NCBI RefSeq assembly: GCF_022828475.1
Contig: NZ_CP059557.1
Location: 1,736,001 to 1,800,000, forward strand
Direction of reading: 5' to 3'
Source: Saccharopolyspora gloriosae
GTDB lineage: Bacteria; Actinomycetota; Actinomycetes; Mycobacteriales; Pseudonocardiaceae
DNA length: 64,000 nt
Of the stretch, positions 1,513-38,808 are shown piece after piece; the first letter of the stretch is position 1; the number at the start of each line of letters is the position of its first letter. The translations under genes and the position numbers were made by a program. The notes under the pieces were generated by a model. The model was not told where the DNA came from. It saw only the letters and a program-made list of their open reading frames with translations, and searched no databases.

Positions 1513-1622
1513 GGGTAGCGGAACCTCAGCGGCCTTCTCGCTGCGGGATCGATTTCTCAAGTAGCCACCTACTCAGCGAAATCGCTGTCCTCGCGAGAAG
1601 GCCGCTGAGAACCCGCCGGTGG
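1513..1622. repeat. Nested palindromic repeat, copy A
   Basis: Two stacked stems. The outer arms at 1525-1541 and 1593-1609 form a perfect 17-bp pair, flanked by GCGGAACC on the left and GAACCCGCCGG on the right. An inner stem pairs 1550-1556 with 1578-1584 and 1560-1564 with 1569-1573. Copies with the same layout but different, still-paired arm sequences lie near 11.9, 19.7 and 38.7 kb. It stands 50 bases after the stop of the GGDEF-EAL gene, so it may also end that transcript. The trailing part of the element resumes at 2553, after the IS insertion. Confidence 0.8.
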
Positions 1623-1644
1623 TCGTTTTGGGTAGGTGGGCTAA

Positions 1645-2552
1645 GGGGTCCTTTCAGAATGCTGTGGCAAGGAGTTTGCGGGCGAGGATCATGCAGTGGG
1701 TGAGGTGGAGTAGGCCTTCGTGGATGTCGTCGCGGGTTTCCCAGCGGATGCGGAGTTTGCGGGGACCGTGGAGCCAGGCGAAGGCGGCTTCGACGACCCA
1801 GCGGAGTGTGCCGAGGCCGGATTCGTGCTGATCACCGCGACGTGCGATGCGGGGTGTGATGTTGCGGTCCCGTAGCTGGTGCCGGTATTTGTCGTGGTCA
1901 TAGCCGCGGTCGGCGTAGACGTGACGGGGTGTGCGGCGGGGTCGGCCTCGGACTCCGCGTACCGGTGGGACCGCCTCGATCAGCGGTATCAGCTGGGTGA
2001 CGTCGTTGCGGTTGCTGCCGGTCAGCAGCACTTGTAGCGGGGTTCCGCGGGCGTCGGTGATGATGTGGTGTTTCGAGCCCGGCCTGCCCCGATCAACCGG
2101 GCTCTTGCCCACTTTTGGGGAACCACGTCCTCGTTTGGCCTGGATCTGCGAGGAGTCCACCACTGCGCGGGAGAAATCCAGCTGATCGGCCGCACGCAGC
2201 TTGGCCAGCAGGACCTCCTCCAGCTGTTCCCAGACACCGGCCTGCTGCCACTCCGCCAACCGGCGCCAGCACGTCGAGCCCGAACCGAACCCGAGTTCCT
2301 GGGGCAGGAACTCCCACTGGATACCGGTGTAGAGCACGAACAACACACCCTGCAACGCCTTACGGTCATCGATCCGACACCGCCCCGGATGCCGAAACCT
2401 TCGTTCATGCCTGGGCAGCAACGGTGCGATCACCGCCCACAGCTCGTCACTGACCTCCCACGGCCTCGGGCGAGACATCCCACGCTCCAACCACAAACGC
2501 GATCAACACACACCCCCACCATGCCAAAACAAGATCATTCTGCAAGGACCCC
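1645..2552 (-). mobile_element. IS5-family insertion sequence (908 bp)
   Basis: The terminal inverted repeats begin GGGGTCCTT at 1645 and end AAGGACCCC at 2552; with one mismatch they continue as CAGAATG inward. The trinucleotide TAA flanks both sides (1642-1644 and 2553-2555), fitting the TNA-type target duplication of some IS5 subgroups. One intact transposase gene fills the element on the minus strand. Joining the flanks recreates sequence that aligns with the trailing part of repeat copy C near 19.75 kb, so the element entered a pre-existing palindromic repeat. Confidence 0.9.
1654..2478 (-). CDS. IS5-family DDE transposase
   Basis: A 274-residue transposase that cuts and rejoins the ends of its own IS. 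The N-terminal domain (WEVSDELWAVIAPLLP, DUF4096-like) is followed by the RNase H-like core. The likely catalytic residues are Asp in VVDSSQI, Asp in YADRGYD and Glu in VVEAAFAW. The ATG at 2478 is preferred over the upstream TTG because GGAG lies six bases before it. The gene is one unbroken frame, unlike many IS5/IS427 relatives that need frameshifting. It stops 9 bases inside the left end, as usual for compact ISs. It appears intact and potentially active. Confidence 0.9.
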   Translation of the reverse strand: MSRPRPWEVSDELWAVIAPLLPRHERRFRHPGRCRIDDRKALQGVLFVLYTGIQWEFLPQELGFGSGSTCWRRLAEWQQAGVWEQLEEVLLAKLRAADQLDFSRAVVDSSQIQAKRGRGSPKVGKSPVDRGRPGSKHHIITDARGTPLQVLLTGSNRNDVTQLIPLIEAVPPVRGVRGRPRRTPRHVYADRGYDHDKYRHQLRDRNITPRIARRGDQHESGLGTLRWVVEAAFAWLHGPRKLRIRWETRDDIHEGLLHLTHCMILARKLLATAF

Positions 2553-2590
2553 TAAGCGCTGCGCGCTTGAGGCACGGCCTTCGGCCGCGA

Positions 2591-2775
2591 GGCACGGCTT
2601 CGCCGCGAGGCAGGTGGGCTTTGCCGCCTAGGGCACGGCTTCGCCGCGAGGCAGGTGGGCTTTGCCGCCTAGGGCACGGCTTCGCCGCGAGGCAGGTGGG
2701 CTTTGCCGCCTAGGGCACGGCTTCGCCGTAAGGCAGGTGGGCTTTGCCGCCCACTGCACGGCTTTGCCGTCCGGT
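2591..2775. repeat. 41-bp tandem repeat of small UUCG-type hairpins
   Basis: The block GGCACGGCTTCGCCG recurs with a 41-base period at 2591, 2632, 2673 and 2714; the last unit is diverged and followed by a partial one. Each unit carries short self-complementary stems around TTCG or TTTG loops (CGGCTTCGCCG, GGCTTTGCC). Similar hairpin clusters trail repeat copies C (19755-19880) and D (38570-38690), but only here are they expanded in tandem. No open frame or promoter is evident across 2553-2800. Confidence 0.85.
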
Positions 2776-2806
2776 GTGGGTGTTGTTGTGGTGGTTCGGA
2801 CGTGAA

Positions 2807-2840
2807 TCGGCCCCGCTCGGCGGATGCTGAGCGGGGCCGA
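2807..2840 (-). terminator. Hairpin terminator of the LVIVD-repeat gene
   Basis: TCGGCCCCGCTC (2807-2818) pairs perfectly with 2829-2840 around a 10-base loop, 13 bases after the stop codon of the minus-strand gene. There is no T-tract, which is common for actinobacterial terminators. Confidence 0.7.
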
Positions 2841-2853
2841 CTCGGTGCTTGGT

Positions 2854-4302
<1,449 letters not shown>

Positions 4303-4466
4303 ACCATCACCCCATTTGTCCGGCCGGTTACCGGCCGTTGTGGAACAGCGGTTACCCCGACCGCATCTGATCAGTATCTTGTACCGAGATGGTCGAACCA
4401 ATAGGCCGAGTGGTTGTTTCAACATGTGAAATCGCTGCCGCGAGGCCGGGGAGAGTCGGGGACGAC

Positions 4467-5159
4467 ATGTTCGGACGCGCGACGACCGGTCTGGTCGCGG
4501 CGGGCTGGTGCGCGGTGGCGCTGCTGGCGACCGCGGGCTGCACGAGCGGCGAACCCGCTGCCGAGGAACCGGCAGGCCCTCCCGTGGTCCTGCCCGGTGC
4601 GCCCGGTGACGAACCGAGCGTCGTGCCGTCGCTGGACCGCGAACACCTCGCGAGCCCCGCACCGGTGGCGGCCGAAGCGGACTACGTGCGGATGATGATC
4701 GTCCACCACGAGCAGGCCGTGACCATGACGGACCTCGCCGAGACCCGAGCCGAGGACCCGCGGGTGCGGTCGCTCGCCGCGCGCATCGGCGGCGTGCAGC
4801 CGGTCGAGATCGGCGCCATGCGCGGCTGGCTCGGCACCCACGATCTGCCGGAGAACCCGGGAGGTTCAGCGCACGAGGGCCACTCGGGGCACGGGCATTC
4901 CGGTCACGGCGCCGAGTCCCAGCCGATGCCGGGCATGGCGACGCCCGAGCAGCTCGTGGAGCTCGAAAAGTCCGACGGCGCGGAGTTCGATCGCCTCTTC
5001 CTCCAGCTGATGACCGCGCACCACGAGGGCGCGGTCGCGATGGCCACCGACGTGCTCGCCACCGGCCGCGACGAGCAGCTGCACGAAATGGCGCAAGACG
5101 TCCTCGTCACGCAATCCGACGAGATCACCACGATGCGGAAACTCGCCGCCGGGGGCTGA
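4467..5159 (+). CDS. DUF305 lipoprotein with His-rich linker
   Basis: Lipoprotein of 230 residues. The signal peptide ends in the lipobox LATAGC with Cys25 as the lipidated residue. Two DUF305 halves carry matching motifs, MMIVHHEQAVTM and LMTAHHEGAVAM, which in this ferritin-like family are suspected metal sites. A Gly/His-rich linker (HEGHSGHGHSGHG) joins the halves and could bind copper or other metals. The ATG at 4467 is chosen because it gives the lipoprotein signal and follows a G-rich ribosome site. It is divergent from the LVIVD-repeat gene, so the two products may act together at the cell surface. A role in metal handling is inference. Confidence 0.85.
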   Translation: MFGRATTGLVAAGWCAVALLATAGCTSGEPAAEEPAGPPVVLPGAPGDEPSVVPSLDREHLASPAPVAAEADYVRMMIVHHEQAVTMTDLAETRAEDPRVRSLAARIGGVQPVEIGAMRGWLGTHDLPENPGGSAHEGHSGHGHSGHGAESQPMPGMATPEQLVELEKSDGAEFDRLFLQLMTAHHEGAVAMATDVLATGRDEQLHEMAQDVLVTQSDEITTMRKLAAGG

Positions 5160-5171
5160 GTTCCGCGCGGC

Positions 5172-5399
5172 TCAGGTGAGGTCGTCGAACTCCCCGGCCT
5201 TGACGCCCTGCACCCACGCGAACATCTCGGCCCGGGTGAACAACACGGCACCGTCCTCGGGGTGGTTGCTGTTGCGCACGGCTACCCGCCCGTCCGGCAA
5301 CGCGGCAGCCTCAACGCACTGACCACCGCCACCGTTGCTGCCGCCGGAGAAACTGCTTTTCCGCCAGGTCAGATCGGCGTACTCATCGAGTTTTGACAT
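5172..5399 (-). CDS. DUF397 protein
   Basis: Small protein of 75 residues with the DUF397 signature: WRKSSFSGGSNGG, then CVEAAALPDG and the AVRNSN and FAWVQGVKAGEFD blocks. DUF397 proteins are usually encoded next to an XRE regulator with a C-terminal DUF5753 domain, and the pairs (for example whiJ-type loci) act in actinomycete developmental control. Here the only neighbouring regulator is a decayed fragment (5691-6070), so this copy may be orphaned. A frameshifted near-duplicate lies directly upstream. Confidence 0.85.
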   Translation of the reverse strand: MSKLDEYADLTWRKSSFSGGSNGGGGQCVEAAALPDGRVAVRNSNHPEDGAVLFTRAEMFAWVQGVKAGEFDDLT

Positions 5400-5444
5400 G
5401 AGACTCCCTTCCGCCCGATCACCCGGGGACGGGTTCCGCGCGGT

Positions 5445-5670
5445 TCAGGTGAGGTCGTCGAACTCCCCGGCCTTGACGCCCTGCACCCACGCGAGCATCT
5501 CAGCACGGGTGAACAACACGGCACCCTCTTCTGGGAGCTTGCCATTGCGCCGCAATGCGGCCATCGGGTAACGCGGCAGCCTCCACACACTGACCGCCAC
5601 CATTGCTTCCCCCGCCAGAGAAGCTGCTCTTGCGCCAGTTCAGGCTGCCATTTCCGTCGAGCTGTGACAT
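5445..5670 (-). pseudogene. DUF397 gene disrupted by a frameshift
   Basis: Near-duplicate of the gene at 5172-5399; the flanking DNA is also duplicated. The start at 5670 gives MSQLDGNGSLNWRKSSFSGG, but relative to its sister it has lost two bases around 5550-5580. The frame therefore changes after ALPDG and meets a stop at 5500. The C-terminal half (FTRAEMLAWVQGVKAGEFD) is intact in another frame, down to a TGA at 5445. A sequencing error is possible, but the neighbouring gene is also decayed. Confidence 0.75.
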
Positions 5671-5690
5671 GGGGTTCCCCTTCCGCACGA

Positions 5691-6070
5691 TCACTCGAAG
5701 CTCTTCTTCGCTTTCATGATCGCATCTGCGGAGTCCGCGCGGGACAGGGAAATCTCTGTCAGCGCCCCAAATCGGAGCGTGCAAGCCCGGACCTGATCTC
5801 GATCCTCCGAATAGAGGCTTCCCGCAGGCCCTTCGGTGTAGCCGATGTCGGGGATGGGTTCTGGAAGGCTCAGGACTGCGAAGTCGCCCTCCAAACCGGG
5901 ACTGCCACCGCAGTCCTTCGGCAAGATCTGGATCGTGACATCCGACTGCTCGGCGACATCGAGCAATCGTTAAAGCTGATCACGCATGATCGACGGCTTG
6001 CCCACGACCCGCTCAAGGATCGTCTGATCCATGATGAAGTGTTGGCACGGTGGCGTTTCCCCGGCATGGA
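5691..6070 (-). pseudogene. Remnant of an XRE/DUF5753 regulator
   Basis: Only the C-terminal DUF5753 domain survives: FIMDQTILERVVGKPSIMRDQL, an in-frame TAA, then LLDVAEQSDVTIQILP and the typical acidic tail. The N-terminal helix-turn-helix is missing and another stop closes the frame near 6075. The domain would normally partner the downstream DUF397 genes. An intact relative lies at 47878-48735. The TAA and the missing DNA-binding half make a working product unlikely, although the 91-residue piece from 5966 could still be translated. Confidence 0.7.
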
Positions 6071-6110
6071 TCTAAACCGGACACGCTTCGCATGAATGCA
6101 GAGGGTGGCC

Positions 6111-6536
6111 ATGGCCGATAACCACGCAGTGAGCGGATCGACCGAGTCCGCAGGGCATCCGCTGGACGCCCTCGTCAACGACCCGACCGGCCTGCGGCCG
6201 CTGTGCGATGAGGAGATGTTCGCCGAGATCATGGCCGGGATCGTGGCCGACTCGGCGCCGCGCGTCTTCGCCATCGTCCAGGAGTACGGGCTGCGGGTGG
6301 ACGGTCGTGTCGCTGCGTGGGGGCTGGTGCTGCCGGATCGAGTCGAGGTCGTCTCGGTCGAGAAGGGCATCCGCTCCAGCGCCGCCACCGCCGAAGAGTC
6401 CATTGTGGAATTCAGCTGCGGCACGCACATCCGGCCCCGGCTGGTCTGGGTGGATCCGGCGAAGGCCACTCCGGATCTCGACGAGGACGAAGAAAACGGG
6501 ACCGAGATGAGCGGGCCGGGGACCGATGGCACATGA
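6111..6536 (+). CDS. Conserved actinobacterial protein of unknown function
   Basis: Protein of 141 residues that I cannot assign to a named family. It has no signal peptide or membrane segment and an acidic tail. The conserved core includes HPLDALVNDPTG, FAEIMAGIVAD, APRVFAIVQEYG, VDGRVAAWGL and GTHIRPRLVW. A paralogue at 59561-59959 shares all of these blocks, so they mark the family core. The ATG at 6111 is used because GAGGG lies six bases upstream. Its end overlaps the start of the APH-fold gene by 11 bases, so the two are probably translated from one mRNA. Confidence 0.75.
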   Translation: MADNHAVSGSTESAGHPLDALVNDPTGLRPLCDEEMFAEIMAGIVADSAPRVFAIVQEYGLRVDGRVAAWGLVLPDRVEVVSVEKGIRSSAATAEESIVEFSCGTHIRPRLVWVDPAKATPDLDEDEENGTEMSGPGTDGT

Positions 6537-7374
6537 TCGGGTGGTGGCACCGAACGAGATTCCGAACGACGAAGCCGACGAGATGTTCGCCGCGTGGATG
6601 CGGCAGAACCTGGACCGGGCCGCCGAGCACTTCGAAGTGCGCCTGGTGGGGGAGCCCGTGTTCGGCTGGCGGCTGCGGTCCATCGGCGCGGCCGTGCTCA
6701 GCTCCGACGGCCCGCGCTGGTTGCGCGTGGTGTCGGAGGAGATCCACTGGGCCGAAGGGGACTGGTGGACCGGCAACGCCGACTCCAACGCGATCACCGG
6801 CGTGCGCAAACCACGAGTCCTCGGCCTGGTGGAGTGGGAACTGTCCGAGACGCGGCGGCAACGCGGCGAGCTGATGACCTTCGTACCGGGGCAGCGCTGC
6901 TCGGACACCGACGTGCTGCGCGAAGAGCTCGACCTGTCCGACGAGTGGTGGGCGGAGCTGCGCGGCGCGCTCGACACGATCCGCGCGGTGCCGACCCTGC
7001 GGCTGCGCAACGACGAACCCGACATCCAGCGAGCAGTGCGGGACAAGCTCGGCCACGACCTCGACATCGAGCACTGGGACACGGTGCACGGCGATCTGCA
7101 CTGGGCGAACCTGGTACGTCCCCGGTTCGGCCTGCTCGACTGGGAGCTGTGGGGGCGCGGACCGGCGGGAACGGACGCGGCCTCGCTGTACTGCTACAGC
7201 CTGCTCGTCCCGCCGATCGCCGCGAAGGTCCGGGACACCTTCGCCGACGTCCTCGACACCGCAGACGGCACCACGGCCCTGCGCTACGTCGCGGCCCGCG
7301 CCCTGCACCGCGTCGACATGGGCGACCACCCGGACCTCGCCGACCCGCTCCGGGAGCTCGTCGCCCGGCTCTGA
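6526..7374 (+). CDS. APH-fold phosphotransferase-like protein
   Basis: Protein of 282 residues with the catalytic half of the aminoglycoside phosphotransferase / small-molecule kinase fold. HGDLHWAN at 188-195 is the catalytic Asp loop, and LLDWELWGRGP from 203 supplies the metal-binding Asp. The first half lacks an obvious Gly-rich loop, and the predicted ATP-anchoring Lys is not clear. The substrate cannot be read from the sequence; the family includes drug, choline and homoserine kinases. It overlaps the upstream hypothetical gene by 11 bases and is probably co-translated with it. Confidence 0.75.
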   Translation: MAHDRVVAPNEIPNDEADEMFAAWMRQNLDRAAEHFEVRLVGEPVFGWRLRSIGAAVLSSDGPRWLRVVSEEIHWAEGDWWTGNADSNAITGVRKPRVLGLVEWELSETRRQRGELMTFVPGQRCSDTDVLREELDLSDEWWAELRGALDTIRAVPTLRLRNDEPDIQRAVRDKLGHDLDIEHWDTVHGDLHWANLVRPRFGLLDWELWGRGPAGTDAASLYCYSLLVPPIAAKVRDTFADVLDTADGTTALRYVAARALHRVDMGDHPDLADPLRELVARL

Positions 7375-7396
7375 GCTCGCGTGTCCCGGATTTCGG

Positions 7397-7711
7397 TCAG
7401 TGGATGAGTTTGAGGCCGATGACGCCGCCGACGATCGCGGCGAGGAAGACGACCTTGAGCACGGACACCGGTTCGCCACCGGTGGCCATCGCGTACAGGA
7501 CGGTGAGCACCGCGCCGATGCCCACCCACACCGCGTAGGAGGTGCCGACGGGGAGCTCGCGCATCGCGTAGGCGAGGCCCGCCATGCTCGCGGCCAGGGC
7601 GGTGAAGAACACCACGGACGGGCCGAGCCTGCTGAGGCCATCGGACTTGCCCAGGGCCGTCGCCCACACGGCTTCGAGCACACCGGAAATGACCAGGACG
7701 ATCCACGACAT
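7397..7711 (-). CDS. gdx: Guanidinium exporter, SMR family (Gdx/SugE type)
   Basis: Small multidrug-resistance transporter of 104 residues with four membrane helices, working as an antiparallel dimer that trades guanidinium for protons. The coupling residue Glu13 lies in GVLEAVWATALG. The Gdx subtype is supported by GLSRLGPSVV, LPVGTSYAVWVGIG and the C-terminal GVIGLKL. The ATG at 7711 follows a GAGGGAG ribosome site, and the open frame upstream of it is the leader RNA. That leader holds a guanidine-III riboswitch, which independently supports guanidinium as substrate over a general QacE-type drug role. Confidence 0.92.
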   Translation of the reverse strand: MSWIVLVISGVLEAVWATALGKSDGLSRLGPSVVFFTALAASMAGLAYAMRELPVGTSYAVWVGIGAVLTVLYAMATGGEPVSVLKVVFLAAIVGGVIGLKLIH

Positions 7712-7725
7712 CACGGACTCCCTCT

Positions 7726-7768
7726 GGGCCGTCTTGTCGCACACCGGGTACGGCGCCCCTCGTCCGGG
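7726..7768 (-). promoter_or_regulatory. Guanidine-III riboswitch
   Basis: On the minus strand the leader reads CCCGGACGAGGGGCGCCGTA, then CCCGGTGTGC and GACAAGACGGCCC. It matches the known guanidine-III (ykkC-III) aptamer block by block: GGACGAGG, GCGCCGUACCCGG and GACAAGACGG, with the pseudoknot-forming GACGGC/GCCGU segments conserved. The 3' end lies next to the ribosome site of gdx (7718-7724), so ligand binding would most simply free that site and switch the exporter on. Confidence 0.93.
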
Positions 7769-7964
7769 AGCCACGTTGTCGGGCTCGATTCCAACGTCGC
7801 ACACCCGCTGCGGGGTGGCAACGAGTGCCGCCTCACCCGAGCGTCGTCGGCCGGGGTACCGCCGGATCGCGTCGAGCTGAGGGCGATCGGGGCGCTGTCG
7901 GAGTGCGGCAACTCGGGTGGGCGACGGCGTCGCTCAGGTGACCGCCGCGAGTCCCGGGGGCGCG

Positions 7965-8330: not shown

Positions 8331-8372
8331 GCCCGCATTGTCCGCCACCACGGCGGGCTCACGCCCCGGGCC

Positions 8373-10790: not shown

Positions 10791-11777
10791 CTACCGCTCC
10801 CGGAAGGCGCGCAGCAGCCTCTCCGCCGCCAGGGATGCGGTGAGTTCGCCCGCGCGGACGTGGGATTCGACGTCCGCGACGATTTCGCGCACCTCGGGGT
10901 GGGCGACGAGTTCCGCCATCAGCTGATCGCGGACCAGCGCCCACGTCCACTCGACCTGCTGGCGGCTGCGCTTGTCGGCGAGTTCGCCGGTGTCGGTGAG
11001 CGTCGCGCGGTGCTGCTCGATCTGCTCCCACAGCGAGTCCAGGCCGTTGCCGGTGAGGCCGCTGCACGTCACCACCGGCGGCGTCCACGAGGCGCTGACG
11101 GGAGTGAGCAGCCGCAGTGCCCCGCGCAGTTCGCGGGCGGCCTTGCGCGCGTCCATCTCATGTGGACCGTCCGCCTTGTTGACGGCGACCAGATCGGCGA
11201 GTTCCAGCACGCCTTTTTTGATGCCCTGCAACTGATCCCCGGTCCGCGCGAGCGTCAGCAGCAGGAAGCAGTCGACCATCCCGGCCACCGTCACCTCGGA
11301 CTGGCCGACGCCGACGGTCTCCACCAGCACCACGTCGAACCCGGCGGCCTCCATCAGCACGATCGTCTCGCGGGTGGCGCGGGCGACGCCGCCGAGCGTG
11401 CCCGCCGACGGAGAGGGCCGCACGAACGCGGCCGGATCCGCCGACAGCGTCGCCATCCGCGTCTTGTCGCCGAGGATGCTGCCGCCGGTGCGAGTCGAGG
11501 ACGGGTCCACCGCCAGCACCGCCACCCGATGCCCGGCCGCGGTCAGCGTCGTGCCGAGCGACTCGATGAACGTGGACTTGCCGACGCCGGGCACGCCGGT
11601 GATGCCCACCCGGTGCGCCCCGCCGCTGTGCGGGAGCAGTTCGATCAGCAGCTCCTGGGCCTTGGCCCGGTGCGCCGGTTTGGTCGACTCGACCAGCGTG
11701 ATCGCCTGCGCCAACTTCGTGCGGGAACCCTCCAGCACGCCCTTGGCGTAGTCCTCTACGTTGATCTCGCGCGGCAT
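10791..11777 (-). CDS. meaB: Methylmalonyl-CoA mutase chaperone GTPase MeaB
   Basis: G-protein chaperone of 328 residues that loads and protects the adenosylcobalamin cofactor of methylmalonyl-CoA mutase. The P-loop GVPGVGKST, the switch region (VDPSSTRTGGSILGDKTRM) and the base-recognition NKAD are present, along with the ETVGVGQSE block typical of MeaB/ArgK. The C-terminal dimerisation arm is present too. The ATG at 11777 has AAGGA seven bases upstream. It is the last gene of the mutA-mutB-meaB set but is separated from mutB by 228 bases holding palindromic repeat copy B, which may lower its expression. Confidence 0.95.
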   Translation of the reverse strand: MPREINVEDYAKGVLEGSRTKLAQAITLVESTKPAHRAKAQELLIELLPHSGGAHRVGITGVPGVGKSTFIESLGTTLTAAGHRVAVLAVDPSSTRTGGSILGDKTRMATLSADPAAFVRPSPSAGTLGGVARATRETIVLMEAAGFDVVLVETVGVGQSEVTVAGMVDCFLLLTLARTGDQLQGIKKGVLELADLVAVNKADGPHEMDARKAARELRGALRLLTPVSASWTPPVVTCSGLTGNGLDSLWEQIEQHRATLTDTGELADKRSRQQVEWTWALVRDQLMAELVAHPEVREIVADVESHVRAGELTASLAAERLLRAFRER

Positions 11778-11814
11778 TGAGACGTCCTTGCGGAGTGAGC
11801 TGGCGTAGTGGGTC

Positions 11815-11942
11815 GGGTGGCGGAACCTCAGTGGCTTCCTCGCTGCCCCCTTGCCGGGTGTGGCCGCGATTTCTCAAGTAGCACCCTACTCAGCGAAATC
11901 GCCGTCCTCGCGAGGAAGCCGCGGAGAACCCGCCGGTGGTGG
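11815..11942. repeat. Nested palindromic repeat, copy B
   Basis: Same layout as copy A: GGCGGAACCTCAG on the left and GAGAACCCGCCGG on the right. The outer arms at 11827-11843 and 11910-11926 pair at 15 of 17 positions plus one G-U pair, with an inner GCGATTTC/GAAATCGC stem. It lies inside the mutB-meaB gap and is followed by a further hairpin, TCAGCGGC-TCC-GCCGCTGA, near 11967-11985. It could attenuate transcription between the two genes. Confidence 0.8.
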
Positions 11943-12005
11943 GCTTGCTTCGGTGGTCACTGCTCAGCGGCTCCGCCGCTGACAAGGCACCGATCAACGG
12001 ACTCA

Positions 12006-14215
<2,210 letters not shown>

Positions 14216-14216
<1 letters not shown>

Positions 14217-16141
14217 CACTCGACTCCCAACGTGCGGTGCGCGGCGCGCAGCACCTGGATCGCGTCGCAACCGGCGAACACGTGACCGTCCACATCGTCC
14301 GGTCGTTGACTCGGTTTTCCGGCCAGCAGCACGCGTTTCGCGCCCGCTTCCTTGAGCGCCTCGGCCGTTTCGGCGGCGCGTTCGGCGTAGACCTTGTCCG
14401 CCGAGCACAGGCAGACCACCGGAGTGGGGTGCTCGGCGTAGGCGGCGAGCACGTCCGAAGTGGACTCCGTCGGTCCTGCCTCGGTGGATTCCAGGCCACC
14501 GGCGGCGAACAGGTTCCGGGCGAACGACGCCCGCGCCGTGTAGGTCGCCAGCGGTCCCAGCGTGGCGAGGAAGACCTCCGGTCGCTGCTGCTGAGCGTCG
14601 GCGGCGTCGCGCAGCGCCTCGAACTCCTCGGCGTAGCGCACCCTCGGCAGCCCGCCCGAGGGCGGTTCCGGCGCGGGCTCGCGCCGCAGGGGCTGCTCGG
14701 TGAGGTTCGGGAACTCGCTCACCCCGGTGATCGGGTCGGAGCGGTCGGCGACCGCGGCCTTGCGCCGCTCCCAGGTAGCCGCGAGCCGCTCGGCGACCAC
14801 GCCGGAGCGCAAGGCGTCCGGAAGTCCGCTCGCGCCCTCGATCTCCTGGAACCACGCCCAGGCGGCGTTGGCGAGCTCGTCGGTCAGCGTCTCGACGTAC
14901 CAGGAGCCACCGGCCGGGTCGATCACCTGCGCCAGGTGCGATTCGTCGAGCAGCAGCGCCTGCGTGTTGCGGGCGACGCGCTGGGAGAACTCGTCCGGCG
15001 AGCCGATCGCCGCGTCGAACGGCTGCACCGTCACCGCCTGCGCACCGCCGACGCCGGCGGCGAACGTCGCGATCGTCGCGCGCAGCATGTTCACCCACGG
15101 ATCGCGCCGCGTCAGCATCGCCGAGGAGGTCACGGCGTGCTGGGGCTGCGCCCGCGCCGCAGGCGAGGCGCCGCAGCGGCGCGCGACCTGCTCCCACACG
15201 CGGCGCGCGGCGCGCAGCTTCGCGATGGTGAGGAACTGGTCGGCGGTCGCCGCGTAGCGGAACTCCAGCAGTCCGCACGCGGTGTCCACGTCCAGCCCGG
15301 CTTCGGTCAGCCACCGCAGGTAGGTGACTCCGGCGGCCAGCGAGGCGCCCAGCTCCTCGCCGTCCGAACCGCCCGCGTCGTGGTACGGCAAGGCGTCCAC
15401 GGTGATCGCCCGCAGGCCCGGGTGGCCGTCGGCGCAGCGTTTCGCCAGTTCCACGGCCTGCCCCGGGCCGATGTCCCGGCCGGTGCGGGCCTGCACGCCC
15501 AGCGGGTCGGCGCCGAGGTTGCCGCGCAGCGCGCTCGGCGCCACGTCCTGCTCGGCGGCGATGGCCAGCAGGGCGGCGGCCGCGCTCGGCGCCTGCTCGC
15601 CCGCGTCGAGCACCACGCCGATCATGTCCAAGTGCACGCCGTGCAACGCGTCGGCCAGCGAGTCCACGGCGAGCCCGCCTTCGCCGAGCCGCAGCAGCAG
15701 CGAGCCGACTCCGCCGTTGAGGTCCGCGAGGATCTGCCGGTTCGCGGTGGCCGCGTCCGGATTCCCGTGCGACTGGCGCACGTCCCAGCCCTCCGCGACC
15801 GAGCCCTGCGGCCTGCTGCCCCGCACGAACGGGGCGAATCCGGGCAGTCCCGAGGCGGACGCGTCTTCGGACGCCCTGTCTTCGGCCGCCCCATCCCCGG
15901 TCGCCTCATCTCTGGTGGCGCTGTACAGCGGCCGCACCGTGAGGTCGTCGTAGGTCCGCGTCGCCAGCAGCTCGGCCGGATCTTCGGGGGCCGGATCGCC
16001 TTCCGCGATGCGGCCGGTCCTGCGCAGGACCTTCTCCACCTGCTCCAGCCACTGCCGATGCGTGGGCTCGGGGAATTCGCCGCCCAGGCTGAGCCCGGGC
16101 CGGGGGCTGCTCGTCGTCGAGAGCCGGTCAGAGGGCGCCAT
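14216..16141 (-). CDS. mutA: Methylmalonyl-CoA mutase small subunit
   Basis: Non-catalytic partner of MutB, 641 residues. It keeps the barrel and Rossmann-like domains but lacks the DxHxxG cobalamin motif, as expected for this subunit. Recognisable blocks are [40 protein letters not shown] and [12 protein letters not shown]. The ATG at 16141 is the first plausible start after the low-complexity upstream DNA; its ribosome site is weak, so a slightly earlier GTG cannot be excluded. First gene of the mutase operon, coupled to mutB by a one-base overlap. Confidence 0.95.
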
Positions 16142-19181: not shown

Positions 19182-19595
19182 ATGGCGCAGACCGTGGTAG
19201 CAGGCATCGACGGGTCCGAGGAGTCCAAGCGCGCGCTGCACTGGGCCGCCGAGTACGTCACGAAGGTGGGCGGACTGGTGCACGCCATCACGGTGTGGCA
19301 CCAGCCGGTGCAGTTCGGCTACCGCCTGCCGACCCCGGACACCGAACTCGAACAGCGCGCCCGCAAGCTCCTCGACGAGACGACCGAATCCGTGAAGGCG
19401 GAATTCCCGAAGGTGGACATCCGGCCCCGGCTCATCCGCGGGCACGTCATCGACGAACTGGTGGGGCTGTCCCCGCAGGCCGACATGATGGTCGTGGGCA
19501 ACAAGGGCCACGGCGCCTTCACCGGCATGATGGTCGGCTCAGTGGCCCTGAAACTAGTCCACCACGCGCGTTGTCCTGTGCTCGTCGTTCGGTGA
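19182..19595 (+). CDS. Universal stress protein, UspA family
   Basis: Single-domain universal stress protein of 137 residues. It starts with VVAGIDGSEESKRAL, the first strand and ATP-contact loop, and ends with the nucleotide-binding motif GNKGHGAFTGMMVGSVA, which fits the G-2x-G-9x-G-S/T consensus of ATP-binding Usps. Such proteins support survival under starvation or low oxygen; no specific partner can be inferred. A run of AGAGGAACGGG before the ATG is a reasonable ribosome site. Palindromic repeat copy C begins 30 bases after its stop. Confidence 0.93.
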   Translation: MAQTVVAGIDGSEESKRALHWAAEYVTKVGGLVHAITVWHQPVQFGYRLPTPDTELEQRARKLLDETTESVKAEFPKVDIRPRLIRGHVIDELVGLSPQADMMVVGNKGHGAFTGMMVGSVALKLVHHARCPVLVVR

Positions 19596-19625
19596 AGTCT
19601 TCGTCGGTCGGTTTGCTTTGGGGGG

Positions 19626-19880
19626 CGGGTGGCGGAACCTCAGTGAGCCTCTCGCTGCGGGATCTTTTTCCCTAGTGGCTCCGCCACGAGGGAAAAAGCT
19701 GTCCTCGCGAGAGGCTCACTGAGAACCCGCCGGTGGTCGGCTTCTTGACGTGGGCTATGTGCTTCGCACATACAGGCACGGCCTTCGGCCGCCAGGCAGG
19801 CGTGCTTCGCCGCCCTTCGCGGGCTTCGCCGCCAACTGCACGGCTTCGCCGTCAGGATTCGGCTTCGTCGGTAGGGAGCT
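19626..19880. repeat. Nested palindromic repeat, copy C, with trailing hairpin cluster
   Basis: Outer arms 19639-19655 and 19707-19723 form a perfect 17-bp stem. Inner arms 19664-19673 and 19689-19698 (CTTTTTCCCT/AGGGAAAAAG) form a second perfect stem, and GTGGC-TCC-GCCAC makes the tip. The trailing part holds TGTGC-TTC-GCACA and several GGCTTCGCC-type mini-hairpins up to about 19880. It fills the gap between the convergent usp and methyltransferase genes, together with the separate terminator at 19890. Confidence 0.85.
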
Positions 19881-29386: not shown

Positions 29387-29405
29387 CAGCTCGACCCCCG
29401 CTCGC

Positions 29406-30605: not shown

Positions 30606-30720
30606 GAGGGGTGCTCCTTTGCGGTGTGTCCGGCCCTGCCGGGATGCGCGGTGGCGCACCTCGGCGGCGGGCCGGGCGGCGTGTGAACTTCGGGTACCGC
30701 GATGCGGGTGAGCGGGATGC

Positions 30721-33207: not shown

Positions 33208-33347
33208 GTGCCGCCCCCTGGCTCACGACGCTGATTTCGGGTCTTGCGAGGCCCGGAAACCGGAGAATTCGGCTTGGTTGACGCAGATTCGTCCTCCGCA
33301 CCCGGTCGGAGCGCCGGCGGCGGCTCCCCCGAAGCCCCTTCGGAGGT

Positions 33348-33385
33348 GTTGCGCTGGTCACAACTGGCTGCGTTAGACGCAACAG
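33348..33385. promoter_or_regulatory. Putative IclR operator between dmg and soxB
   Basis: The 361-bp divergent control region contains nested dyads: GTTG/CAAC (33348-33364), TGCGT-TAG-ACGCA (33369-33381), and outer GTTGCG/CGCAAC (33348 and 33378-33383). Read on the minus strand, 33377-33385 gives CTGTTGCGT. The same CTGTTGCG opens the dyad in front of the iclR gene at 38833, so both may bind the IclR protein. The rest of the region shows no gene. Confidence 0.55.
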
Positions 33386-33568
33386 TGCGCCTGGGCGGTG
33401 CGGCGCGTCAAGCACACGAGAGGGCTAATTTTCGTTGAAATGATCGGATTTTTGATCTGTTCGGGTGTCGGCGTGATCCACTCCGGCGACCCGGCTTGTT
33501 GGCGTGACCGAGCGTGGTTAACCTCGCCGCATCAGGACTTCTGGCGTTCTCGCCTAGTGGGTGATCAG

Positions 33569-34819
33569 ATGCGATCCCGCCCTTCCCGCAGCATCGCGCC
33601 GAAAGCCGAACGGCTCCCGGACCCGCCGGCCCGGCTCTGGCGCTCGGCGGATCCGAAGCGCACCTACGACGTGGTGATCGTCGGCGCGGGCGGGCACGGG
33701 CTGGCGACCGCGTACTACTTGGCCGCAGAGCACGGAATCCGGGACATCGCGGTGCTGGAACGGGGGTGGCTCGCGGGCGGGAACATGGCCCGCAACACCA
33801 CGATCATCCGCTCCAACTACCTGCTCGACGAGAGCGCCGCGCTCTACGGTCACGCGTTGGACCTGTGGGAGCGGTGGCCCGGCGAATTGGACTACGACTT
33901 CCTGCTCAGCCAGCGCGGCGTGCTCAACCTGGTGCACACCGAGCAGGAGGTGCGCGACGCGCGACGCCGCGCCTTCGCCAACGGGCTCAACGGGATCGAC
34001 GCGGAATTCGTCGGCCCGGACGAGATCGCCGAACTGTGCCCGATCCTCGACGTGTCCCCGGACCGGCGTTATCCGGTGCTGGGCGCGACTTGGCAGGCGC
34101 GGGCGGGGATCGCGAAGCACGACCACGTGGCGTGGGCACTGGCGACCCGAGCGAGCGAGTTCGGCGTGGACTTGATCGAACAGTGCGAGGTCACCGGATT
34201 CGTCACCGATGGTGACCGGGTGGTCGGGGTGCGGACCTCGCGCGGGGACATCGCCGCGGGCCGGGTCGGGCTGGCCGCGGCGGGGCGCACCAGCGAGCTC
34301 ACCGAGACGCTCGGGTTGCGGATTCCGTTGCAGAGCCACCCGTTGCAGGCGCTGGTGTCCGAGTTGCTGGAGCAGGTGCATCCGTGCGTGGTGATGTCGA
34401 ACCACGTGCACGTCTACTGCAGCCAGGCGCACAAGGGGGAGCTCGTGCTGGGCGCGGGCATCGACTCCTACAACGGCTACGGGCAGCGCGGCTCGGTGCA
34501 GGTGATCGAGCGGCAGATGGCGGCGGCGCTGGAACTGTTCCCGATCTTCGCGCGGGCGCACGTGATCCGGACGTGGGCGGGCGTCGTGGACGTCACCCCG
34601 GACGCCTCGCCGATCATCGGGCCGACGCCGTTCGAAGGGCTGTTCGTCAATTGCGGTTGGGGCACCGGGGGATTCAAGGCCACGCCCGCGGTGGGACGGG
34701 TGTTCGCGCACACCGTGGCGACCGGATCACCGCACCCGCTCAACGAGCCGTACGGCCTGGAGCGGTTCCGCACCGGCGCCCTCATCGACGAACACGGCGC
34801 CGCCGCCGTCGCCCACTGA
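33569..34819 (+). CDS. soxB: Sarcosine oxidase beta subunit
   Basis: Flavoprotein subunit of 416 residues of heterotetrameric sarcosine oxidase, where sarcosine is oxidised and FMN is covalently attached. Visible are the Rossmann start [21 protein letters not shown], the [10 protein letters not shown] loop and AKHDHVAW, in which the second His is the known FMN-linking residue. [12 protein letters not shown] closes the FAD site. The ATG at 33569 puts the start where relatives begin; a GTG at 33557 is an alternative, as the ribosome site is weak. First gene of soxBDAG. Confidence 0.94.
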
Positions 34820-34904
34820 GGAGGTCGGAATGGTCCGCGTAGGGGGCGCTCAAGGCACCGGACGAAGTATCTTTCTGCGCTTCCGGGCTCGAAGGAGGGA
34901 CGTG

Positions 34905-35147
34905 ATGTTGCAGATTCCTTGCCCTTGGTGCGGGAATCGGGACGAGGTCGAGTTCCGCTACGGCGGGCAGGCCCAGGTCGCGTACCCGGAGGATCCGGTC
35001 GCGCTCAGCGACGCCGAGTGGGCGGAGTACCTGTTCGTGCGGGCGAATCCGCGCGGCAGGCACGCCGAGCGCTGGGTGCATTCCGACGGCTGCCGCCGCT
35101 GGTTCGACGTCGTCCGGGACACCGCCACGAACGAGTTCGCCTCATGA
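34905..35147 (+). CDS. soxD: Sarcosine oxidase delta subunit (zinc-binding)
   Basis: Small structural subunit of 80 residues. Cys6, Cys9, His59 and Cys63 are exactly the zinc ligands of the Corynebacterium enzyme, and PCPWCGNRDEVEF and HSDGCRRWF are diagnostic. The ATG at 34905 follows GAAGGAGGGACGTG. It ends in ATGA overlapping the start of soxA, so the two are translationally coupled. Confidence 0.95.
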   Translation: MLQIPCPWCGNRDEVEFRYGGQAQVAYPEDPVALSDAEWAEYLFVRANPRGRHAERWVHSDGCRRWFDVVRDTATNEFAS

Positions 35148-37945
35148 CCCGGCTGCCCTCCGGCGGGCGCATCGATCGCAGCCGGACCATCGAGTGCACG
35201 GTGGACGGGGTGCCGCTGCGCGGGCATCCCGGCGACACGCTGGCCTCCGCGCTGCTGGCCGCCGGGCGTCTTGAGGTGGCGCCCTCGACGTACCTGGGGC
35301 GGCCGCGAGGCATCGTCACGGCCGACTCGGGTGAGCCGAACGCGCTGGTCCAAGTGCTCGACGCCCCGGAACCGATGGTCCCCGCGACGGAGGTGGAACT
35401 GCGGGACGGCCTCGCCGCGCTGAGCCTTTCCGGTGTCGGCCGGGCCGATCCCGGCGGTGAGCAGCGCTGCGAGAAGCGGTATCGGCACGCGGACGTCGTG
35501 GTGATCGGCGCCGGACCGGCGGGCTTGGCGGCCGCGTTGGCGGCTGGGCGGGGCGGTGCTCGGGTGTTCCTGGTGGAACGTCACCGTGAGCTCGGCGGCG
35601 CGTTGCTGGACGGCGACGAGCGGATCGACGGGGCGCCGGGTGTGGAGTGGGTGGCGCGCGCGGCCAGCGAGCTCGCCGCGCTGCCGGAGACCCGCGTGCT
35701 GACCCGGGCGACGGTCGCCGGACACTACGATCACGGATACCTGCTGGTCGCCGAGCACTCCGCGCCGGAGCAGCGGCCCGCGTGGCAGCGGCTGTGGCAC
35801 CTGCGCGCGCAGCGGGTGGTGTTGGCGACGGGTGCGCGTGAGCGGCCCATCGCGTTCCCCGGCAACGACCGGCCCGGCGTCATGCTCGCCGGAGCGGTCC
35901 GCCGCTACCTGCGCCGGTTCGGGGTGCGGGCCGGTGAGCGCGTCGTCGTGTGCACGACCGGGGACAGCGCTTATGCGACGGCGTTCGACCTGGTGGCGGC
36001 CGGTGCGTCCGTTCCACTGCTGGTCGATGCCCGGTCTGAGCCGCCCCCGGCGCTGCAGGCTCGGGCGCGGGACGTGGGAATCCGGGTCCGAACCGGTGCG
36101 TCGGTCGTCGGTACTTCCGGGGCGCACCGGGTTTCCGAGGTTCGGGTCGCCGACATCAACGACCCCGGCCGGGCGGAGGTGGTGGAGTGCGATCTGGTGG
36201 CGGTCGGCGGCGGGTGGAATCCGGCGGTGGAACTGGCTCGAGGCCCGCTCACCTGGGACCCCGAGGTGTCGGCGTTCGTGCCGGAGCAGGACGCGGCGGT
36301 GGGTGCGGCGCGCGGAGCGTTCGGCCTGGCGGACTGCCTGGCTCAGGGGTTCGCGGCCGGGGCCGCCGCGTCCACCGCGACCGGGTTCGGGGCCTCGGCT
36401 CCGCAAGCCCCGGTCGTCGAGGGCGATCCCGCGCAGTCCCGGGATCATCCATTGTGGAGTGTTGTGGGCGATGAGGTGGAGAGTTTCGTCGACCTGCAGC
36501 GGGATGTGACCGTCGCCGACGTTCGCCGTGCCGTTGACGCCGGACTGCGCTCACCGGAACACGTCAAGCGGTACACGACACTCGGTACCGGCAGTGATCA
36601 AGGTGCCACGTCGAACGTGCTCGGGCTGGGCGTGCTCGCCGCCCTGCTCGGCCTGGACTCGCCGGGTGCGTCGGGCGCCACGACGGCACGGCCTCCGGCG
36701 CGGCCGCTGCGCTTCGAGCTGCTGGCCGGGCGGGACCGCGGCGCGCTGCACGACCCGGTGCGCACCACTCCGATGCACGACTGGCACGTGCGGGCGGGCG
36801 CCGTGTTCGAGAACGTCGGGCAGTGGAAACGCCCGCGCCACTACCCGAAACCGGGTGAGGACATGGCGGCGGCGGTGCTGCGGGAGTGCGCCGCCGCGCG
36901 CACCGGGGTCGCGATGATGGACGCGACCACCCTCGGCAAGATCGACGTGGTCGGTCCGGATGCGGGGGAGTTCCTGAATCGCGTCTACACCAACGGTTTC
37001 GCGAAGCTGGCCGTCGGCAAGGCGCGCTACGGCATGATGTGCACCGCCGACGGCATGGTCTTCGACGACGGCGTCACCATGCGCCTGGCGCCCGACCACT
37101 ACCTGATGAGCACCACCACCGGCAACGCGGCGGCGGTCTTGGACTGGCTGGAGGAGTGGTTGCAGACCGAGTGGCCGGAGCTGTCGGTGCACTGCACTTC
37201 GGTGACCGAACAGTGGGCCACGATCGCCGTGGCCGGGCCGGATTCCCGCGCGGTGCTGGCGCGGGTCGCGCCGGAACTGGACGTCTCGGCGGCGGGGTTC
37301 GGCTTCATGGAGTTCCGGAACACGTTGCTGCGCAACGGGATTCCCGCCCGAATCAGCCGGATCTCGTTCTCCGGAGAGCTCGCCTTCGAGATCAACGTGG
37401 CGTCCTGGTACGGCCAGGCGGCTTGGGACGCGGTGTTCGCCGATGGCGCTGACTTCGGCATCACGCCGTACGGCACCGAGACGATGCACGTGCTGCGCGC
37501 CGAGAAGGGATTTGTGATCGTCGGCCAGGACACCGACGGCACGGTGACTCCGCTGGACCTGGGCATGGACTGGGTGATCTCCAAGCGGAAGGACTTCATC
37601 GGCAAGCGCTCCTTCGCCCGTCCCGACACGGCCCGCGCCGGTCGCAAGCAGCTGGTCGGGCTGCTGCCGGTGGATCGGGACGTGTTGTTGCCGGAAGGCG
37701 CTCAGCTCGTTGAACCCGCCGCGTCCCGGACGCCGCCGGTGCCGATGCAGGGGCACGTGACCTCCAGCTATCGCAGCGCGGCGCTGGGCCGGACGTTCGC
37801 GTTGGCGCTGATCCGCGACGGCAGGCGCCGCGTCGGCGAGGTGCTGCACGCGCCGCTCGGGGACCGGGAACTCGCCGTCGAGGTCACCGATCCCGTCTTC
37901 TACGACCCGGAAGGAGCCCGCCGTGACGGTCACCAGCCCGGCTGA
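35144..37945 (+). CDS. soxA: Sarcosine oxidase alpha subunit
   Basis: Large subunit of 933 residues. It begins with the 2Fe-2S-ferredoxin-like fold seen in this family (VDGVPLRGHPGDTLASALLAAG), then the FAD/NAD domain (ADVVVIGAGPAGLAAALAAG; LATGARERPIAFPGNDRPGV). The C-terminal THF-binding GcvT-like half includes GVAMMDATTLGKIDVVGPDA, TADGMVFDDGV and the ETMHVLRAEKGFVIVGQDTDG stretch. It transfers the oxidised methyl carbon to THF, giving 5,10-methylene-THF and glycine with H2O2. It overlaps soxD by four bases and soxG by 23. Confidence 0.95.
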   Translation: MTRLPSGGRIDRSRTIECTVDGVPLRGHPGDTLASALLAAGRLEVAPSTYLGRPRGIVTADSGEPNALVQVLDAPEPMVPATEVELRDGLAALSLSGVGRADPGGEQRCEKRYRHADVVVIGAGPAGLAAALAAGRGGARVFLVERHRELGGALLDGDERIDGAPGVEWVARAASELAALPETRVLTRATVAGHYDHGYLLVAEHSAPEQRPAWQRLWHLRAQRVVLATGARERPIAFPGNDRPGVMLAGAVRRYLRRFGVRAGERVVVCTTGDSAYATAFDLVAAGASVPLLVDARSEPPPALQARARDVGIRVRTGASVVGTSGAHRVSEVRVADINDPGRAEVVECDLVAVGGGWNPAVELARGPLTWDPEVSAFVPEQDAAVGAARGAFGLADCLAQGFAAGAAASTATGFGASAPQAPVVEGDPAQSRDHPLWSVVGDEVESFVDLQRDVTVADVRRAVDAGLRSPEHVKRYTTLGTGSDQGATSNVLGLGVLAALLGLDSPGASGATTARPPARPLRFELLAGRDRGALHDPVRTTPMHDWHVRAGAVFENVGQWKRPRHYPKPGEDMAAAVLRECAAARTGVAMMDATTLGKIDVVGPDAGEFLNRVYTNGFAKLAVGKARYGMMCTADGMVFDDGVTMRLAPDHYLMSTTTGNAAAVLDWLEEWLQTEWPELSVHCTSVTEQWATIAVAGPDSRAVLARVAPELDVSAAGFGFMEFRNTLLRNGIPARISRISFSGELAFEINVASWYGQAAWDAVFADGADFGITPYGTETMHVLRAEKGFVIVGQDTDGTVTPLDLGMDWVISKRKDFIGKRSFARPDTARAGRKQLVGLLPVDRDVLLPEGAQLVEPAASRTPPVPMQGHVTSSYRSAALGRTFALALIRDGRRRVGEVLHAPLGDRELAVEVTDPVFYDPEGARRDGHQPG

Positions 37946-38525
37946 ACCGGGAACCACCGGCCCGGCCACCGCGGATCTGCGCCGCAGTCCGCTGGCCGCT
38001 CGCCACGCCGAACTCGCCGAGCACAGCGCCCGCAGCGGCGTGCTGCTCGCGGAGGAGTCGTTCTTGGCGCAGGTGAACCTGCGCGCCACACCGGACGCGC
38101 TCGACCGGGTCGGCCGAACGACCGGAATTCCGTTGCCGCGCAACGTGAACGAGGTGCACGGCACTCCGGAACGCGCCGTGCTGGGGCTGGCCCCCGACGA
38201 GTGGCTGATCATCGCCCCCGACGGCACGGCGGACGGCATCGTCGCCGAACTCGCCGCAGCCGGAGCCGGTTCGGCAGTGGACGTGTCGGCCAACCGCACG
38301 ACGCTGCGCCTCGCCGGCCCCCGAGCCAGGGACGTGCTGGAACAGATCTGCTCGCTGGACCTGCACCCACGGGCGTTCACCACCGGAAGCTGCGCCCAAA
38401 CCCTCGTCGGCCGAACCCAGGCCATCCTCTGGCAACTCACCGAGGAACCCGCCTACCGCCTCCTGGTACGCGGCTCCTTCGCCACCTACCTCGCAGACCT
38501 CCTGATCGACGCCCTACCGCGCTGA
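37923..38525 (+). CDS. soxG: Sarcosine oxidase gamma subunit
   Basis: Subunit of 200 residues with the GcvT-like fold that completes the heterotetramer. Marker blocks are ESFLAQVNLRATPDAL, LGLAPDEWLIIAP, VDVSANRTTLRLAGPRARDVL and the LVRGSFATYLADLLIDA end. The GTG start at 37923 has GGAAGGAG six bases upstream and overlaps soxA by 23 bases. Last gene of the operon; repeat copy D follows. Confidence 0.92.
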   Translation: MTVTSPAEPGTTGPATADLRRSPLAARHAELAEHSARSGVLLAEESFLAQVNLRATPDALDRVGRTTGIPLPRNVNEVHGTPERAVLGLAPDEWLIIAPDGTADGIVAELAAAGAGSAVDVSANRTTLRLAGPRARDVLEQICSLDLHPRAFTTGSCAQTLVGRTQAILWQLTEEPAYRLLVRGSFATYLADLLIDALPR

Positions 38526-38567
38526 CCCACCACCGACCAGAGCCCGCAGCCCACAACCGAACCCGCC

Positions 38568-38808
38568 AACGGCCGTGCCGTTGGCGGCGAAGCCCGCGAA
38601 GGGCGGCGAAGCCCGCCTGCCTCGCGGCCGAAGGCCGTGCTTTGCGGCGAAGCCGTGCCTGGATGTGCGAAGCACATAGCCCACGTCAAGAAGGTGACCA
38701 CCGGCGGGTTCTCAGTGAGCCTCTCGCGAGGACAGCTTTTTCCCTCGTGGCGGAGCCACTCGGGAAAAAGATCCCGCAGCGAGAGGCTCACTGAGGTTCC
38801 GCTACCCG
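38568..38808. repeat. Nested palindromic repeat, copy D (inverted orientation)
   Basis: Outer arms 38711-38727 and 38779-38795 form a perfect 17-bp stem; inner arms CTTTTTCCC/GGGAAAAAG and a GTGGC/GCCAC tip complete the structure. It is nearly the reverse complement of copy C, including the TGTGC-GAA-GCACA hairpin near 38660 and the GGCGAAGCC mini-hairpins from about 38570. It lies directly after soxG and could end the sox operon before iclR. Confidence 0.85.

Follow-up and report, generated by a model that had tools for sequence, protein, structure and literature searches.

The four copies of a nested palindrome in the DNA stretch studied here (64,000 nucleotides of the Saccharopolyspora gloriosae genome, called the window) raise the question of what kind of element they represent and what keeps their arms complementary. 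All four were located within a few bases of the places given in the first-pass annotation. The bulged palindrome of copy A occupies positions 1512 to 1624 of the forward strand (strict ends 1518 to 1616), and its left 17-base arm (1525 to 1541) is perfectly complementary to its right arm (1593 to 1609). The palindrome of copy C is found at 19626 to 19738 on the forward strand (strict ends 19632 to 19730; arms 19639 to 19655 and 19707 to 19723), and that of copy D at 38696 to 38808 on the reverse strand (strict ends 38704 to 38802; arms 38779 to 38795 and 38711 to 38727). Copy B is a longer variant at 11815 to 11940 on the forward strand (strict ends 11820 to 11933, 114 nt). The span from GCGGAACCTCAG to GAGAACCCGC inclusive comprises 99 bases in copies A, C, and D and 114 in copy B. 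In agreement with the earlier description, copies A, C, and D have perfect 17-base arms, the arms of A and of C/D differ at positions 6, 8, 9, and 11 with each change matched on the opposite side, and the inner stems of C and D are replaced as a pair relative to those of A and B. In copy B, 2 of the 17 arm pairs are broken.

The unit was found to be longer than previously described, as it also includes a left flank of about 20 to 30 nt and a hairpin tail. The left flank of copy C (19605 to 19625, forward strand) recurs in other copies. The tail consists of one hairpin in copy B (CTCAGCGGC-TCC-GCCGCTGA, 11963 to 11982, forward strand) and of several mini-hairpins, termed an array tail, in A, C, and D. 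The array tail of copy C extends from 19739 to 19851 on the forward strand, approximately where the homology with many copies stops, and that of copy D, delimited by eye, from 38568 to 38695 on the reverse strand. An IS5-family insertion sequence (1645 to 2552, reverse strand; transposase ORF 1654 to 2496, reverse strand) with the ends GGGGTCCTTTCAGAATG and CATTCTGCAAGGACCCC and TAA on either side is lodged in the tail of copy A.

All four copies lie at gene 3' ends, as had been claimed, with the qualification that they do so in two orientations. Copy A is in sense orientation 3' of a GGDEF-EAL gene (53 to 1474), and copy C is in sense orientation 3' of a universal-stress gene (19182 to 19595), its left flank starting 10 nt past the stop codon. 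Copy B sits between mutB (12006 to 14219, reverse strand) and meaB (10791 to 11777, reverse strand), the gene pair within which one copy had been placed, and is antisense to both. Copy D lies between a soxG-like gene (37923 to 38525) and an IclR-type gene (38947 to 39693), both on the forward strand, and is likewise antisense to both.

The copies in the window proved to be members of a large family. A strict two-ended pattern gave 202 exact matches (98 + 104) in the 6.88-Mb genome to which the window belongs (G000), and the reversed control of the pattern gave none. Strict copies numbered 29, 28, 300, 106, and 102 in five congeners (G001 to G005, respectively), so that all six Saccharopolyspora genomes examined carry the family. 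An absence of further copies, which the first-pass annotation had named as a refuting outcome, was not observed. A structure-free pattern fixing both outer ends returned at least 120 stretches from named genomes, a set that is no census, with matches in many Saccharopolyspora species; among the matches listed there were also records of Amycolatopsis bartoniae, A. rhizosphaerae, Halopolyspora algeriensis, Sciscionella, Saccharomonospora, and Pseudonocardia. The longest alignment of any of these listed stretches to a 0.4-Mb tile of G000 was that of Saccharopolyspora sp. NFXS83 (88.9% identity over 7.7 kb). A covariance model of the antisense strand had matches in 31 of 120 genomes of the taxonomic family, representing 12 of 46 genera, and in 18 of 249 genomes of the order (a set that includes family members), all 18 belonging to the same family. 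The best 34 candidates per genome were scored in the family search and the best 16 in the order search, so the copy numbers are floors. The repeat is thus patchy within one taxonomic family, and the pattern and model matches identify it as a family of short, predicted DNA hairpins that, in some soil actinobacteria, reach hundreds of copies in a genome.

The earlier remark that no named element has this layout was upheld. No Rfam 15 family matched the palindromes at gathering score in a search of the window, and the matches at copy C lay far below gathering and were mostly to microRNA models; a known structured RNA family was therefore rejected. The sole Rfam match at gathering in the window was a guanidine-III riboswitch located elsewhere. 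The 247-bp copy C unit gave no match at an E value of ≤1e-5 in phage and plasmid collections, and carriage by either was rejected on this basis. A literature search covering titles and abstract openings, with most subscription journals lying outside it, returned no description of such a family, and the relevant parts of an RNA-seq paper on S. erythraea (PMC3610266) do not describe such a repeat. The family is apparently undescribed so far.

The anatomy and placement of the repeat were examined in 154 copies collected by profile search, namely, 74 from G000, 76 from the sister genome G003, and the 4 of the window; the two genomes were represented by tiles of 1.2 Mb each rather than by their entire sequences. 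About 20 nt upstream of the palindrome are partly conserved (GGTCGTTTTGCTTGGGTGGTC-like), and GTAG or GTGG usually precedes the palindrome. Among the 139 copies scoring at least 70 bits, 81 have a tail that starts like GACGTGGGCTATGTGCTTCGCACATACAGGCACGG and continues as mini-hairpins, and 54 have a single-hairpin tail like GCTCAGCGGCTTCGCCGCTGA, with 6 counted under both types. Seven of 67 tail matches had no recorded palindrome; 5 of these 7 look like remnants or misassignments, and the idea that solo tails are the ancestral target was rejected. The interior was in the normal orientation in 144 of 154 copies, one with an apical flip, and was unclear in 10. There were no clear inversions among the 154, so interior inversion is rare and was rejected as a regular feature. 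In pattern-match listings, two interior-inverted copies were seen in G003 and one apical flip in G000.

All 154 copies lie outside called genes. Copies between divergent genes were found in 3 of 74 cases in G000 and 0 of 76 in G003, where divergent pairs make up 146 of 581 and 142 of 551 spacers of at least 120 nt, respectively. A sense stop codon lies within 120 nt upstream of 105 of the 154 copies, at a distance of 5 to 42 nt in 101 of these, and only 16% of intergenic bases lie 5 to 60 nt past a stop. Genes were called by a codon-score script, and the stop-codon positions behind these distances are approximate in places. Between tandem genes, 58 of 81 copies are sense and 23 antisense; between convergent genes, the stop on the 5' side of the element is the nearer one in 59 of 66 cases. 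These counts show that, relative to the predicted genes, the copies lie preferentially just behind stop codons and are more often in sense orientation.

This location past stop codons, together with the avoidance of divergent promoters, is what would be expected of a host-useful 3'-UTR element, whose hairpin ends transcription or shields mRNA from 3' exonucleases, whose pairing is kept by host selection, and whose spread is incidental. The predicted folds are compatible with such a role: copies A and D fold as RNA better than 200 of 200 shuffles on both strands (z scores of −6.2 to −8.8), and folding was very stable on both strands in all five copies folded, A and D among them. Conversely, reading of the sequence after the hairpin in copies A, C, and D revealed no T-run directly adjacent in these three. 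We consider the 3'-UTR reading unlikely, for this reason and others given below.

Pairing was tallied in 56 diverse copies that had been preselected to have no more than 6 arm mismatches. Standard pairs fill 96.3% of their pair cells compared with 79.7% in shuffles, and sliding the partner lowers pairing to 41 to 49%. Double-change cells number 264 in these copies and 83 in shuffles. The palindrome is thus shown, as far as predicted pairs can tell, to be kept by paired changes. Unpaired arm changes, which the first-pass annotation had regarded as evidence against such covariation, do occur, in copy B and in 21 of 66 strict G000-set copies with at least one, but not as a rule.

The mismatches that are tolerated differ between the strands. 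Among the matches listed from the named genomes, 92 distinct arm pairs contain 113 A.C and 20 G.U combinations when read on the gene-sense strand, or 58 and 18 when position 9 is omitted; at arm position 14 of the same listed matches, the asymmetry is reversed (1 versus 7). The asymmetry is small in G003 (4 versus 1) and in the congeners (12 versus 5), and the G000 set is even (21 versus 19). The predicted RNA fold of the antisense strand is the more stable one in 117 of 126 distinct named copies that show a difference (again among the matches listed), in 42 of 56 G003 copies, in 34 of 46 G000-set copies, and in 23 of 25 congener copies. In addition, the conserved ends GCGGGUUCUCAG and CUGAGGUUCCGC of the antisense strand pair via G.U plus one U.U. 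An A.C seen on one strand reads as G.U (or G.T) on its complement, so the antisense strand is the one whose structure is kept. These comparisons show that G.U (or G.T) is accepted in the predicted pairing mainly on one strand, the one antisense to the preceding gene. This gene does not transcribe that strand, which argues against the 3'-UTR element.

The same bias is compatible with a mobile antisense RNA gene, in which the strand opposite the host gene would carry its own promoter and encode a structured RNA of about 100 nt acting in trans. The near-invariant internal-loop residues would also suit such an RNA. Its arms, however, vary freely, and therefore it would have no fixed target; we regard this reading, drawn from sequence comparison, as quite improbable.

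Next, the relation of the copies to their sites was considered by comparing the two tiles, which are inverted-collinear at approximately 90% identity (checked on 0.4 Mb of each). When the 74 G000 copies were mapped to G003, 31 had an orthologous copy, 29 an empty site, and 14 were unmappable. The sister genome thus has empty sites at 29 of 60 mappable positions, a proportion that also speaks against the 3'-UTR element. Among 20 alignable empty sites from both directions, 8 had good identity on either side (by eye); in 7 of these 8, the insert starts within about a dozen bases of a stop codon (by eye), and no clear target-site duplication was seen by eye at the 8 junctions. At the locus of copy C, G005 has a decayed copy, G003 a fragment, and G004 a tail-like hairpin alone, and nothing recognizable is present in G001 and G002. 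The empty orthologous sites show that the copies, as far as alignment can reveal, are inserted.

Six of the 154 copies bear IS5-like ends at both sides (at most 6 mismatches of 18), with total lengths of 221 to 230 and, in some, TAA/TAC and CTA/TCA-like junctions. All six have single-hairpin tails, and their ends resemble the ends of the IS5-family element located in the copy A tail. Among random control stretches, 1 of 83 or 1 of 71 passes this threshold at one end. It is conceivable that the repeat is an ordinary MITE of the IS5-family element in the window, with the palindrome as a passenger and the stop preference reflecting a TNA-like target presumed for the transposase; some deletion derivatives bear the same ends as well (by eye). 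However, the other 148 copies do not show the two ends together, and the 83 array-tailed copies match the left end in 4 cases and the right end in 1 case at the same threshold, against 1 and 1 in controls. The transposase, encoded by four identical genes in G000, was not found in the draft genomes G001 and G005, which carry 29 and 102 copies. Moreover, a passenger would not be maintained by paired changes, and a symmetric target yields no orientation bias. An ordinary MITE is accordingly improbable as an account of the family.

Other mobilizing enzymes were sought by profile. The Y1 transposase domain PF01797 (E value of ≤0.001) had no match in G000, G003, G004, or G005, one in G001, and two in G002, and a RAYT was rejected as the present mobilizer in the rich genomes since G000 and G003 gave no match. 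The reverse transcriptase domain PF00078 (RVT_1) was absent from G000 and G003 and present in one of the six genomes (G005); a derivative of a retroelement (group II intron or retron) thus lacks the expected enzyme in G000 and G003. Searching the two tiles and the window for half-sites yielded 22 left and 14 right matches outside known copies, many of them weak. These include deletion derivatives, and by eye no pair of halves in the tiles and window surrounds a gene, so a longer autonomous element with the same ends was set aside.

The sites shared by the two high-copy genomes reveal how the arms change. The 31 shared sites comprise 527 arm pair positions, of which 403 are unchanged, 100 differ on both sides, and 24 differ on one side; 96 of the 100 two-sided changes are Watson-Crick in both species. 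Because 7 of the 31 sites differ in orientation between the two genomes, some "shared" sites are probably independent insertions. At the 24 sites of the same orientation, no pair has identical arms at positions 6 to 12. The haplotype at such a site recurs within its own tile in 19 and 20 of these cases; the G003 tile lacks the G000 haplotype at 12 of the 24, and the G000 tile lacks the G003 haplotype at 19 of the 24. Haplotypes are thus largely, not strictly, species-specific. For 22 of these 24 pairs (two with fewer than 30 aligned flank columns were left out, and there was no selection on flank identity), the flank 21 to 80 nt upstream, mostly a gene end, is 83% identical, and arm positions 6 to 12 are only 49% identical, with 79 two-sided and 10 one-sided changes. 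Site-by-site comparison thereby shows that the arms at a given site are replaced by other matched subtypes in high-copy genomes, which points to exchange among copies or to re-insertion.

Subtypes that have spread are mostly intact. Of the haplotypes present at two sites or more, all 7 in the G000 tile and 12 of 15 in the G003 tile are perfect, and the other 3 of 15 spread with a mismatch. Of those at a single site, 2 of 34 and 8 of 20, respectively, are perfect; this imperfection is in part a consequence of the classification, as decay turns a copy into a singleton. The pattern looks like sweeps of intact subtypes via insertion and exchange rather than slow drift. The view of the first-pass annotation that structure is kept while sequence drifts is therefore correct as to the pairing, and drift is an incomplete account of the change, given the arms swapped for matched subtypes. 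The antisense fit, the stop-codon preference, and the insertion are three points that go beyond that annotation.

Replacement of arms at shared sites could also mean that the covariation is a copying artefact only, produced by template switching between arms or gene conversion among copies without selection on structure. Such copying leaves the excess of A.C over G.U unexplained, and we consider it very improbable, in part owing to genomes that have few copies from which to copy.

In a second genus, each of seven genomes examined has 1 to 4 detected copies. The copy behind gatB is present in five of the seven genomes and, in three, is the sole copy at an E value of ≤0.01; since the best 150 of some thousands of first-look candidates were scored, "single copy" means a single detected copy. 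The identity of gatB was confirmed by profile in two of these three genomes. Across the gatB copies of the three one-copy species, all 36 predicted pairs remain intact on the antisense strand and none are broken, although the structure was predicted from the same three sequences, which favors unbroken pairs. Double changes preserve 7 of the 36 pairs, and switches to or from G.U on that strand preserve another 3. Over 13 loci of this genus, A.C outnumbers G.U by 9 to 3, in loci found with the antisense-strand model, which could favor G.U on that strand slightly.

Because no donor copy was detected in the three genomes, exchange within the genome does not readily explain the paired changes there, and the unbroken pairs weigh against the copying artefact unless donors came from outside. 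Exchange with outside DNA could account for the paired changes in one-copy genomes. Several species of one genus have retained the gatB copy with paired changes, which favors the 3'-UTR element. Conservation even as a single copy, with at least one match in each of the seven genomes, is also in line with a mobile antisense RNA; decay of some low-copy copies is not, as in G338, where one of two copies, that behind gatB, is decayed. In general, conservation in genomes with 1 to 4 copies is no less compatible with a host function than with a selfish one, and the host-serving 3'-UTR element and the mobile antisense RNA are both live rivals.

Altogether, our preferred reading, to which we give about even confidence, is that the family is a non-autonomous mobile palindromic repeat of a Saccharopolyspora-like lineage, whose antisense hairpin is needed for its own propagation or maintenance, with an IS5-type route for some copies. 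The unit would comprise the left flank of about 20 to 30 nt, the bulged double palindrome of about 99 bp, and the hairpin tail. Perfect pairing in nearly every haplotype found at several sites leads us to infer that the hairpin of the antisense strand, folded as single-stranded DNA or RNA, is required for propagation or maintenance. New arm sequences would spread by insertion and by copy-into-copy exchange, that is, gene conversion, perhaps initiated when the extruded hairpin is cleaved. Some single-hairpin-tailed copies, at the least, may owe their movement to an IS5-family transposase, as its miniature elements. Any effect on host genes would be the one that a strong hairpin past the stop codon exerts, namely, mRNA stabilization or transcription ending. 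A bolder version, which we think unlikely, holds that the mobile unit is the hairpin of one defined strand, antisense to the gene that precedes the copy. An enzyme from outside the Y1 transposases and reverse transcriptases would read this strand in its folded state, as RNA or single-stranded DNA, with targeting to the first bases past stops. The arms would then be free to vary because only shape is read, and would act as heritable, sweeping "barcodes." If the hairpin is what an enzyme reads, this would be a mobilizing activity outside the RAYT and reverse-transcriptase routes.

The repeat adds an abundant family to an actinobacterial group for which the literature search found none. This group includes antibiotic producers, and in strains used for production, copies past stop codons may influence both the expression of genes and recombination. 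Furthermore, the family provides an unusually clean natural experiment on structure-keeping change, with matched arms swapped at many sites and with sister and low-copy genomes as controls.

Finally, we compared the family with known systems. It resembles intrinsic terminators in placing a stable hairpin past stop codons, and differs from them in the missing adjacent T-run (copies A, C, and D), the length of 99 bp, the mobility, and the better folding of the antisense strand. Its resemblance to IS5-family MITEs lies in the IS5-like terminal repeats at both ends of six copies of 221 to 230 bp, but the other 148 copies do not show the two ends together, and the interior structure is conserved. 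Among enterobacterial repeats, we take RU-1 to be the same element as ERIC. In the relevant parts of the published accounts, RU-1 is a 127-bp element (PMC2759123), and ERIC (127 bp, enterobacteria) and YPAL are, like our family, intergenic and of similar length with one long imperfect hairpin (PMC2267715). They belong to a different phylum, however, and the relevant parts of their description mention neither matched-subtype arm turnover nor strand asymmetry (PMC2267715); the distinction is drawn from the published descriptions. REP palindromes are given as 20 to 40 bp long, with a GTAG class accompanying Y1 transposases, in the pertinent sections of PMC3733652. According to the same sections, the REP/RAYT system, like the present family, has many intergenic palindromes per genome, subfamilies, and a GTRG tetranucleotide just outside the palindrome (PMC3733652). 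In contrast to REP/RAYT, the palindrome of the present family is double and about 99 bp long, no PF01797 match exists in the two richest genomes, and the copies show a sense bias past stop codons.

An IS5-family insertion sequence (window 1645-2552) is lodged within the mini-hairpin tail of copy A, one of the copies of the bulged double-palindrome repeat, and is flanked by TAA on each side. Four identical transposase genes of this element were found in G000, the genome of the window. Another of these four genes lies at G000:C1:1232176, with a repeat copy nearby at 1233254.

The copy C locus, behind the universal-stress gene, was compared across congeners. G003 (L181/L185) carries approximately 4 kb of extra DNA between this gene and its neighbor, which contains internal repeats as judged by eye and is adjoined by a palindrome remnant. 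In G002 (L183) and G001 (L184), the same universal-stress stop codon is followed immediately by short tandem repeats of another kind, GTGCGGTAGCACCGAAATYTG.

The copies G003:C1:53281, G003:C1:564416, and G000:C1:3714279 keep the conserved ends in their usual orientation with respect to each other but have the interior between them, or just its apical loop, flipped. Two copies in the low-copy genus, L340 and L342, share a similar additional segment of approximately 55 bp near the hairpin apex, and both lie behind the same orthologous gene. In the window, a guanidine-III riboswitch on the minus strand (7723-7789) scores above the Rfam gathering cutoff.

A long tandem array of tiny G+C hairpins, with the unit GGCACGGCTTCGCCGC and variants, occupies window positions 2556-2790, and the tails of array-tailed copies are likewise long tandem arrays of such hairpins (GGCACGGCTTCGCCGC and variants). 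Read on the antisense strand, opposite to the preceding gene, many of these hairpins carry triloops of the GCGAAGC type, a stable DNA motif.
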